Positions 5,282 to 20,720 of a stretch of 21,685 nt of DNA are shown here, piece by piece (position 1 is the first letter of the stretch; every line of letters starts with the position of its first letter). The notes beneath the pieces are model-generated. The model did no database searches, was not told the DNA's origin, and saw only the letters and a program-made list of their open reading frames with translations. The stretch comes from a virus. The position numbers and the translations under genes are program-made. The stretch is from IMG/VR virus record IMGVR_UViG_3300013006_000145, positions 1 to 21,685 of that record. One strand, given 5' to 3'.

Positions 5282-5731
5282 CTATAATTTAAAATACATT
5301 TCAGCTTCTGCAGTTCTGCGCCTGGTGAGTCCTTTAAGCTCCATTAATTCGCCACCAACTCTAGCTTTGTTCCATCTCATAAACTCCGCTTTTATTGCAG
5401 GATCATTAGGATTAGCTAAAATCTTTTTTCTTAAGGTTGAATTGGCAAAAGCACCAATACCAAGATTATAAATAAATGATAAGCACGAATCAAACTGATT
5501 CTGATTAAGATTTAAACCATACAAAGCATTGGATTTATTTTTTAATTCCCACATTAATAATTCCTCAGCTTGTTGCTCATTTATTGTATCACTTAATTTA
5601 ACTTTTCTACCATCTTTATGCATGGTGCTACCATATCCAATGGTAGGAACATTTGCCGGACATAAATAAGCCTTTGCTTTGTATCCTTCAAACATCTTAA
5701 TCAAGTTTATGCAATTCTTTGATGCTATCAT
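5282..5731 (-). CDS. Endolysin, GH24 lysozyme (T4-type muramidase)
   Basis: A 149-aa, full-length single-domain lysozyme that cuts the glycan strands of peptidoglycan. The catalytic signature is E15-G-Y-K-A-K-A-Y-L-C24-P-A-N-V-P-T30-I-G-Y-G. The spacing E-x8-C-x5-T equals E11-D20-T26 of T4 lysozyme. The middle residue is cysteine instead of aspartate, a known variation in GH24 endolysins. The later motif QFDSCLSFIYNLGIGAF is the family's second conserved block, and the C-terminal GLTRRRTAEAEMY is typical. There is no signal peptide, so release to the periplasm depends on a holin. The ATG overlaps the spanin stop (ATGA). It is the last gene of the late operon. Confidence 0.93.
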   Translation of the reverse strand: MIASKNCINLIKMFEGYKAKAYLCPANVPTIGYGSTMHKDGRKVKLSDTINEQQAEELLMWELKNKSNALYGLNLNQNQFDSCLSFIYNLGIGAFANSTLRKKILANPNDPAIKAEFMRWNKARVGGELMELKGLTRRRTAEAEMYFKL

Positions 5732-6216
5732 TTTTTAAGTTGTATTAAATTACCAATTATGCTTAATAAAAATGCTATTATAAGCCACATTATCCAACGA
5801 TTTTTTGTGGTTACTTTATTTTGAAGCTTTCTATTTTGTTCTAACAAATCATTGCATTTATTGTTACAAGAAATTAAATCTAGCTCACATGATCTGATTG
5901 CTGCACTATCTTTTATAGTTTTTGTAATGGTATTTATCTTGTATTCAGTTGCTACAATTGCAGAACCGGTCACAAATTGTGTTTTGTTTTTAGTAATCCA
6001 AATCGTATCATTTTTTACATTGTTAATACCCGGACATTGTATCTCAATAAAATCATACTCAACCCTTGTTACCGTATCAATTTTATTGGTAACACATGGA
6101 AAGGTGTCCATGCAGAATTTGGCAAGGAGTTCGGGATGTTTTGCGTTTAATTTGTCAAGTTTTCGGCTTGGATTACAACTGATCAGTAGTATCAGCACTG
6201 GTATCAAATATCTCAT
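5728..6216 (-). CDS. Candidate unimolecular spanin (lipoprotein with C-terminal membrane segment)
   Basis: A 162-aa protein with a lipoprotein signal peptide (MRYLIPVLILLISC14), whose L-I-S-C is a good lipobox. A periplasmic region follows, the last part of which (residues 110-138: SCELDLISCNNKCNDLLEQN...) could be a coiled coil. A C-terminal transmembrane segment (W141-IMWLIIAFLLSIIGNLIQL) ends in KK. An outer-membrane lipid anchor at one end and an inner-membrane helix at the other is the architecture of one-piece spanins such as phage T1 gp11, which fuse the two membranes in the last step of lysis. The gene directly precedes and overlaps the endolysin gene, the expected place. Family membership is inferred from architecture and context, not sequence similarity. 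The start overlaps the upstream gene by 44 bases. Confidence 0.75.
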   Translation of the reverse strand: MRYLIPVLILLISCNPSRKLDKLNAKHPELLAKFCMDTFPCVTNKIDTVTRVEYDFIEIQCPGINNVKNDTIWITKNKTQFVTGSAIVATEYKINTITKTIKDSAAIRSCELDLISCNNKCNDLLEQNRKLQNKVTTKNRWIMWLIIAFLLSIIGNLIQLKK

Positions 6217-19045: not shown

Positions 19046-19789
19046 TTAAATGTTATTTCTAAACGCTCTTATAATATCCAATGTTTCATCTACTGGCTCA
19101 ATGGTTGTTACCGGTTGAGTAGTGTTAGATTTCATATCTAGAATTAATTGAGCCAATTGTTTGCTGTGTAACAACAACATCTGTATTGTGTCATCTGTTG
19201 CCGTTGTGTTTCTGCAGAACTTATCAATAGCCGCACTCTTTGCAACTATCATGTCTACATCAAGATTGTTATCACCCTTAAGTGATGTGATTGGTGTTAA
19301 TGCATTAGCACCCCATGCAGTAAGTGAACTACCTTCATATAACTTAACCTCTGTAATTTCAAACTGACCTAATGATGGATTGCGTAAATAGTTTTCATAG
19401 GATTGGACCTGATTACGCTTTATTATTTTAAACCCGATTGAATGCTCAGTTATTAATCCACTTTCAACCATCTTTATAAAATCCTCACCGCCTTCATGCG
19501 TTCCTACTTGACTCTCATAATATAATCCGTACTCATCCTCTCTTAAGGTCAATAATTTCCCTAATGGTTGTGATGGATCATGATTAAGTAGATGCTTTAT
19601 TCTTGGTTGTGCTGATGCTGGTCCCTGCTCATTTATCGTCTTAGTAAATGCACCAGGCTTCATTATATCACCATCACTATCCACATTATTGAACTTGCTA
19701 AAATAACCTGTAACAATACCCTGAACCGGATTCATATCCATTATCTCAGATACTATTGATACATCCTTTATGTTGTATATGCTGTTCAT
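19046..19789 (-). CDS. Prohead maturation protease, HK97 family
   Basis: A 247-aa serine protease that cuts the capsid scaffold domain. Motifs in order: VTGYFSKFNNVDSDGDIMKPGAF (residues 26-48), HLLNH70DPSQPLGK with the catalytic histidine, EHS117IGF with the catalytic serine, and FEITEVKLYEGSSLTAWGAN (family E-x-S-x-V/L-x-x-P/W-A-N motif). The last 70 residues are a helical tail that may be removed or act as scaffold. The start is the only reasonable ATG, about 45 bases after the tRNA-like element and in an AT-rich leader. Confidence 0.92.
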   Translation of the reverse strand: MNSIYNIKDVSIVSEIMDMNPVQGIVTGYFSKFNNVDSDGDIMKPGAFTKTINEQGPASAQPRIKHLLNHDPSQPLGKLLTLREDEYGLYYESQVGTHEGGEDFIKMVESGLITEHSIGFKIIKRNQVQSYENYLRNPSLGQFEITEVKLYEGSSLTAWGANALTPITSLKGDNNLDVDMIVAKSAAIDKFCRNTTATDDTIQMLLLHSKQLAQLILDMKSNTTQPVTTIEPVDETLDIIRAFRNNI

Positions 19790-19836
19790 TGATATAAAGT
19801 TACTAATTTATTTTAAATATAAAACCAAATATTTTG

Positions 19837-19926
19837 CACCTGGTAAGGGACTCGCACCCTTATCTCCCTACTATGTAAGGGCGTTTCCTAATGTTGGTAT
19901 TCATTCCCAATTACGCCAACCAGGTG
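19837..19926 (-). ncRNA. tRNA-like structured RNA between head genes
   Basis: On the minus strand CACCTGGT (19926-19919) pairs perfectly with ACCAGGTG (19844-19837). The 3' half is exactly tRNA-like: a 5-bp arm AAGGG/CCCTT with a 7-base loop TGCGAGT directly abutting the acceptor strand, as a T-arm does, with one change from TTCGAGT at the position of psi55. TGGCGTAATTGG (19918-19907) matches the A-box/D-arm consensus. The centre is not canonical: GGCGT can pair with ACGCC 28 bases on, TTGG with CCAA inside, and CCC(T)TAC with GTAGGG around ATA. I find no regular anticodon arm. The element starts two bases after the MuF stop and no CCA is encoded. It could be a degenerate tRNA, a divergent tRNA or a processing signal. 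Confidence 0.6.
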
Positions 19927-19928
19927 TA

Positions 19929-20720
19929 TTATCTTCTAATTATTCTGCCGTTCCTATCTCGCTTAGCATTGAAAGCAACCGTACACCTGCAATTAACTAC
20001 CTCCTCAGCTGGAACTGGCAACCCGTTAGGCTGTGTCCTTACACCCGGTTGCATCATTCCAATATCTCCTAGCTTTGCATTGGTTAATTTAAATGGTGTC
20101 TCAATTGGTAACCTTGTACCATCTACCATCTTATGATCGTGCCTTGTACGTTTATCCTTTACCGCTATCCATACTTTCTCCATTACATTACCTGATTCAT
20201 TTGCATAAATCATAGCCGCACCATTTGCACTGGTAACAGTCTCTGTCCTTGCTATCCTTCTAGCCCTCATTGCATTAAATGCCGGACTAACTAACAACTG
20301 CCTTACAATATCATCAAATGAGGCACCTGTTACTGCTGCATCACTTAACACCCTTTGTATAAATGCCGTGCTGTAGTTGGTCATTAGGTTTGCATCGTTT
20401 AACAAATCTATGCCGTAGTATTGATTCATTAACTCTACAATTCGCTCATTAAAACCCATCTGACCACTTACAAAGTTATCATCTGCCTTTATTGATTCAA
20501 CCCTTGTAACTCTTGCCCATGCCGGCCCAACCGTCTTATACAATGATACCAACACATCATAGATGGGGAATACTGGTAACATCATTGGGTCCTGTGTTTT
20601 TACAAACGCATCCAATTGTATTTTTAAAGCCTTATGGAACTTAGGCGCATACAACTTCTCGTACCTTTGTTGGAACTTACTCCACCTATTAAAATATGCT
20701 GTTTGTTCCTGTTGTGTCAT
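19929..20720 (-). CDS. MuF-like minor head protein
   Basis: A 263-aa protein with an N-terminal helical part (residues 1-140) and a C-terminal Mu gpF-type domain: RARRIARTETVTSANGA, VWIAVKDKRTRHDHKMVDGTRLP, then GLPVPAEEVVNCRCTV. The R-T-E-T, D-x-R-T-R-x-x-H and N-C-R-C motifs define the family. These proteins bind the portal or capsid inside and are often co-injected or needed for head assembly. It overlaps the 63-aa gene by four bases (ATGA). No toxin domain is fused to the C-terminus, unlike some MuF proteins. Confidence 0.9.
   Translation of the reverse strand: MTQQEQTAYFNRWSKFQQRYEKLYAPKFHKALKIQLDAFVKTQDPMMLPVFPIYDVLVSLYKTVGPAWARVTRVESIKADDNFVSGQMGFNERIVELMNQYYGIDLLNDANLMTNYSTAFIQRVLSDAAVTGASFDDIVRQLLVSPAFNAMRARRIARTETVTSANGAAMIYANESGNVMEKVWIAVKDKRTRHDHKMVDGTRLPIETPFKLTNAKLGDIGMMQPGVRTQPNGLPVPAEEVVNCRCTVAFNAKRDRNGRIIRR

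Follow-up and report, generated by a model that had tools for sequence, protein, structure and literature searches.

What kind of element lies between the MuF and protease genes of this phage genome, and what might it do? The window, by which we mean the whole 21,685-nt stretch analysed, is a 21.7-kb viral record in which the portal, MuF, S78 protease and capsid genes all lie on the minus strand, and the best relatives of its tape-measure-like gene are in Flavobacterium and Cellulophaga phages. The MuF–protease gap spans 139 bp (19790–19928), and the 90-nt element that an earlier note described as filling most of it agrees with our coordinates. That note left three options, namely a decayed tRNA, an RNase P/Z decoy that splits the message before the protease gene, and a new structured RNA. 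In our reading, which draws on sequence comparison and to which we assign a probability of roughly 0.6, the locus would encode a small tRNA-like RNA of the phage that acts in trans and does not decode. The window record holds one copy.

On the minus strand, the 90 nt are predicted to fold at −27.1 kcal/mol into a four-arm cloverleaf, which is the outcome of a folding check that the earlier note had suggested. The predicted arms (Table 1) are an 8-bp acceptor stem, a GCGU/ACGC D stem around a UUGG/CCAA hairpin, a bulged triloop hairpin and a T arm with a 5-bp stem and a 7-nt loop. The acceptor-like stem and correctly sized T arm pointed out earlier are both found in this fold and both covary, and the triloop and bulge of the apparent anticodon hairpin are likewise present. 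The sequence previously called an A-box is there as well and is simply conserved D-arm sequence, and the enlargement of the D region is real and corresponds to a conserved hairpin inserted in the D-loop. With respect to stability, the minus-strand z-score is just −1.8 (10 of 200 shuffles were equally stable), and the plus strand of the same stretch gives −2.8. Because the folding energy only mildly beats that of shuffles, the case for the element rests on comparison. ARAGORN, also proposed earlier as a check, reported no tRNA or tmRNA in the window, and Rfam 15 yielded no non-tRNA family at gathering score and nothing for the window stretch at E up to 10.

Table 1. Positions of the putative tRNA-like RNA gene, its predicted parts and its neighbours in the window
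Feature	Position	Strand	Evidence and remarks
MuF-like head protein, upstream of RNA	19929..20720	minus	PF04233, E 7e-15; stop codon 2 nt before RNA
Putative tRNA-like RNA gene, 90 nt	19837..19926	minus (= operon coding strand)	Covariance model R1, 100.4 bits, E 1.3e-22 (rough, from a short calibration); fold; alignments A1, A3
Acceptor stem 5′ strand CACCUGGU, nt −1 to 7	19919..19926	minus	All 7 canonical pairs covary, 88 sequences
D stem 5′ strand GCGU	19913..19916	minus	After U8 (19918) and G9 (19917); then A14 A15 (19911-19912); U8-A14 and A15-U48 in 88/88
D-loop inserted hairpin UUGG-GAAUGAAUA-CCAA	19894..19910	minus	Stem covaries; loop N-AAURAAUA is family signature
D stem 3′ strand ACGC	19881..19884	minus	Preceded by D-loop part CAUUAGGAA (G18/G19 region, 19885-19893)
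Variable hairpin in place of anticodon arm, CCUUACAUAGUAGGG	19866..19880	minus	Stem covaries; no conserved anticodon
Conserved GAU just 5′ of T arm	19862-19864	minus	
T arm AAGGG-UGCGAGU-CCCUU	19845..19861	minus	U54 and A58 present; U54-A58 in 88/88; 4/5 stem pairs covary
Acceptor stem 3′ strand ACCAGGUG, CCA not encoded	19837..19844	minus	CCA encoded in 1/88
S78 prohead protease, downstream of RNA	19046..19789	minus	PF04586, E 9.7e-23; start codon 47 nt after RNA

A search pattern based on the D region recovered this RNA from unrelated phages, and some of these members lie within tRNA arrays. Further members were collected, among the matches listed, with a pattern joining the hairpin loop and the T arm. 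A covariance model built from 24 diverse members gave one clear match of 47–102 bits in each of about 90 contigs and recognised 32 of another 35 loci; the scores of ordinary tRNAs with the same model stay under 37 bits. Altogether, well over 100 IMG/VR phage contigs, forming about 50 sequence groups, carry the RNA, with one copy in each genome; the breadth and loop-sequence spread of this set are only partly sampled, as the collecting patterns were selected. Exactly one copy was found in each of 30 whole records of 7–180 kb. The element is not peculiar to the head operon in which it was first noticed. Some carriers are related to Bacteroidota phages, some are probably phages of Verrucomicrobia and some have tRNA arrays; with hosts read from protein relatives and contigs that are mostly fragments, the RNA probably occurs in phages of at least two bacterial phyla.

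Support for the fold comes from 88 distinct sequences fitted to the covariance model (alignment A3), where pairing is found at 98.4% of pair positions and both sides have changed in 21 of the 24 pairs. Covariation scores 0.81 in this set, as compared with 0.23 in shuffles and at most 0.15 with slid partners, and 24 sequences aligned independently by MAFFT (alignment A1) give the same answer, with 17 of 24 pairs covarying. Covariation among homologues, the lack of which the earlier note had named as one of two results that together would count against the element, is found in the stems, and its option of a new structured RNA is supported. Specifically, the acceptor and T arms (helices 1 and 6) have canonical size, are 99% paired and covary at 11 of 12 pairs. 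The elbow contacts U8-A14, A15-U48 and U54-A58 occur in all 88 sequences, G19-C56 in 78, G18-U55 in 68 and A18-G55 in 12, the latter including the window group. An additional −1:73 pair is seen in 65 of 88 sequences, versus 33 expected. We also observed that all 12 members with G55 have A18 in A3 and that the others are mostly G18-U55; nucleotides 18 and 55 possibly form a covarying tertiary contact, on the strength of few independent events.

These data bear directly on the proposal of a decayed tRNA gene or pseudogene. The RNA does lack an anticodon and is missing from some close relatives, as decay would predict, but compensatory changes are found in every helix across about 50 groups and the non-canonical parts, including the unusual loop, are among the most conserved. 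This option is refuted, and we give it a negligible probability.

One of those parts is the hairpin inserted between nt 15 and 16 of the D-loop, whose stem varies as UUGG/CCAA, CCGG/CCGG, UCGG/CCGA and GUGG/CCAC. Since several search patterns required its loop, two loop-free patterns were run; all true members that they returned keep N-AAURAAUA, with the loop-closing pair changing among G-C, A-U and a U-G wobble. Two members found by the covariance model alone (L298 and L300) keep it as well. A peptide or tmRNA-like coding function for the D-loop (AUG AAU ACC) was rejected, as AUA replaces AUG in about one quarter of members.

The arm at the anticodon position, by comparison, has a covarying stem and little else in common. 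It measures 10–34 nt in most members (range 10 to more than 30), has loops of 3 nt and more, and shows no common loop residue, no shared anticodon and no tRNA-type arrangement of 5 bp, a 7-nt loop and U33. In nine members the arm is long (31–36 nt; L141:12417-12524, L144:3305-3412, L206, L228, L307, L329, L403, L409 and L418) and contains a nested module, NNN-AU-AGN-AU-NNN-(C/U)UUAA, with a chance expectation of about 1e-4 per arm. The stem of this module covaries (GGA/UCC, GUG/CAC, AGA/UCU, GAG/CUC), and removal of the inner hairpin leaves a 7–8-nt loop, UUAANNN(N).

Could these RNAs nonetheless be genuine, if odd, tRNAs that decode with the triplets assigned by ARAGORN (Lys CTT, Glu CTC, Leu CAG, Met CAT, Gln)? 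ARAGORN does name some members in this way, and Rfam, which has no such family, labels three members tRNA at 31.6–41.9 bits with RF00005. The assigned anticodon, however, is part of the D-loop (the CUUGG region ahead of the D stem 3′ strand), the supposed anticodon stem has no complementarity in many members, and the covarying D stem and inserted hairpin exclude the ARAGORN fold, so that we regard a decoding role as very hard to credit. Moreover, the lack of an anticodon, together with acceptor and discriminator bases that vary freely among members, argues against decoding or a single aminoacylation identity. What the sequences indicate is a tRNA fold of four arms in which the elbow is canonical, the D-loop carries a conserved hairpin and a variable arm replaces the anticodon arm.

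With respect to genomic context, relatives of the protease are encoded at 62 IMG/VR loci, and within the window clade (at least 89% protease identity) the MuF–protease gap contains either the element, at about 100 bp, or about 40 bp only. In the protease gene tree, the 19 occupied sites all fall, with 7 empty ones, into a single well-supported clade of 26; over all rows, occupancy must have changed at least three times, and the sites of more distant relatives are all empty. Already within the window clade the stems covary (CACCUGGU/ACCAGGUG, CACCUAGU/ACUAGGUG, UACUUGGU/ACCAAGUA and others), and in four relatives of the window phage that lack the element at the MuF–S78 site, one copy lies at another locus. 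Two further features of these loci were observed. A conserved AACTTTATA-like motif just 5′ of the protease start (window 19790–19800) is present at nearly all protease loci, in occupied and empty sites alike and with TTTTTG ahead of it in many, and may be a Bacteroidota-type promoter or translation signal. In L011, L012 and L017, the MuF gene has tandem-like TTTAAGAGACA repeats inserted at its end, adjoining the RNA.

Presence or absence at one site among close relatives, along with loci that differ between phages, is what might be expected of a selfish or mobile element that uses the tRNA fold, for instance as a recombination hotspot or attachment site. We consider this explanation very unlikely, as there is a single copy per genome, no flanking recombinase was seen, the fold is conserved as RNA and the orientation bias is strong. 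That bias is seen in 47 of 51 groups, where the upstream gene is co-directional (P ~2e-10 versus random orientation). In about half of the groups no more than 9 nt separate the upstream stop codon from the RNA, individual gaps being approximate, as they derive from simple ORF calling. The neighbours encode DNA helicases, RecT, exonuclease, lysozyme, a DNA polymerase subunit, terminase, MuF and lambda-type portal. In L178, L181 and L166, which are probably Verrucomicrobia phages, the RNA is antisense to both neighbours, portal and S49 protease, so not every member can be co-transcribed with the upstream gene. The RNA 3′ end in these three (L178:3917-4035) abuts the portal stop, and the D-loop contains an extra hairpin of about 28 nt. 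An apparent integrase beside a tRNA, suggested by a gene ending next to the RNA in L171/L178, was rejected, the gene being portal.

The same arrangement has a bearing on the idea that the element acts in cis, as a tRNA-like RNase P/Z cutting signal that separates adjacent messages and sets their stability. Co-directional placement right after stop codons and a canonical elbow are consistent with such a signal. Nevertheless, the genes next to the RNA are unrelated in different phages, its locus is another one in relatives, there is one copy per genome, the L178/L181 copies are antisense and the extra D-loop hairpin would be superfluous for cutting, all of which makes this an improbable account. 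In particular, since neighbours differ, one lineage is antisense and four relatives carry their copy elsewhere, a cis role tied to the head operon is unlikely as a general function, and splitting of the message before the protease, as first proposed, is not supported as the function of the element. Differing neighbours, and loci that differ among relatives, point instead to a trans-acting RNA gene able to sit in any operon.

Searches beyond the IMG/VR contigs were negative within their scope. Short blastn queries, of limited sensitivity, gave no family match in 50,697 phage records. Such BLAST matches as isolated phages did give proved to be T-arm matches to ordinary tRNAs or short chance matches. 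Plasmids likewise contained no family match. A host gene or attachment site was rejected, 395 Bacteroidota genomes being free of matches by pattern or by model, the latter scoring just ten candidates per genome. Two GTDB contig matches from one exact-pattern scan (L164, L165), as well as L177 and L183, were set aside as apparent chance matches in coding sequence with poor acceptor and T-arm scores. The lack of isolate carriers is a limit of the collections and not a demonstrated rarity. No description of such an RNA was found in the open-access literature, and this is apparently a large phage RNA family that has so far gone undescribed. Two neighbouring RNAs were seen in passing. In L363, a tRNA with anticodon TTA, which reads the stop codon UAA and is a possible suppressor tRNA, lies at 646-720, directly beside the family member at 545-638; and L200, a phage contig with the RNA, has a tmRNA gene as well (5604-5962), whose tag is ANMNKVFSLIREEVAVAA.

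In terms of mechanism, we picture a non-decoding RNA that would be transcribed together with the upstream gene and then excised. Given the canonical elbow, the simplest maturation route would use RNase P and RNase Z (or 3′ exonucleases), whose recognition of the elbow and acceptor stem would free a stable RNA about 90 nt long. In the window, such excision would also give the protease/capsid mRNA a separate 5′ end lying 47 nt ahead of its start codon. Local cleavage of the transcript would probably be a by-product of maturation. The released RNA might then bind a partner able to recognise tRNA elbows and to read the exposed N-AAURAAUA loop; as elbow and loop both stay constant, the target should recognise both. 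By analogy with other phage tRNAs, which counter tRNA-targeting defences (PMC10264068, PMC11555353), our first, tentative choice is that the RNA acts as a decoy, drawing off a tRNA-binding or tRNA-cleaving factor of the host.

Ranked second, and somewhat more doubtful, is a small regulatory RNA that uses the tRNA chassis for processing and stability, with the AAURAAUA loop pairing to a UAUUYAUU-type site in host or phage RNA. The loop is single-stranded, nearly invariant and exposed, its R, whether G or A, would go well with a target U, and the RNA is found in arbitrary operons. On the other hand, an 8-nt seed that stays the same in phages of different hosts presupposes a target that is conserved universally, and a chassis alone needs no strict keeping of A14, A15, U48 and the D-loop/T-loop contact residues. 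Antisense pairing to rRNA was rejected, E. coli 16S and 23S rRNA having no UAUUYAUU-type site and no exact complement of the loop.

Comparison with known systems helps to place the family. The element shares with tRNA (RF00005) the acceptor stem, 5/7 T arm, D stem, U8-A14, A15-U48, G19 and U54-A58, and a few members pass the RF00005 threshold. Unlike tRNA, it has the hairpin between nt 15 and 16 and a frequent −1:73 pair (8-bp acceptor), and it lacks a conserved anticodon, a 7-nt anticodon loop and an encoded CCA. Like tmRNA, it combines the upper half of a tRNA with the absence of a decoding anticodon arm, but it has no mRNA-like domain or tag peptide, keeps its D stem intact, bears an extra conserved hairpin and is only 90 nt as a whole. 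Plant-virus tRNA-like structures and mascRNA-type RNAs mimic tRNA for non-decoding ends; the present element differs in belonging to DNA phages, in its internal genomic position and in its separate architecture. The T4 stable RNAs C and D are stable phage RNAs of a tRNA cluster whose function is not known; they are longer than the element. Phage tRNAs that evade defence (PMC10264068, PMC11555353) are likewise phage-encoded and tRNA-shaped, and some members of our family lie in tRNA arrays, but those tRNAs decode and the element has no usable anticodon.

As it is widespread, conserved and present once per phage genome, the RNA must serve its phages usefully. We put forward, at less than even odds, that it represents a new class of trans-acting phage RNA in which the elbow is a platform for presenting an invariant N-AAURAAUA hairpin. 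This hairpin would sequester or inhibit a tRNA-interacting factor of the host, such as RNase P, a tRNA-modifying enzyme or a defence nuclease that attacks tRNAs, and the class would have been hidden from annotation or misread as odd tRNA-Lys, tRNA-Glu or undetermined genes. tRNA finders overlook or misname these RNAs, and some phage "tRNA" calls are not tRNAs. The invariant loop offers a direct handle for fishing out the target. Judging from their sequences, phages seem to make a tRNA look-alike without a readable anticodon for a non-decoding purpose and, if it is a true tRNA decoy, this would be a counter-defence or takeover strategy that needs no decoding.
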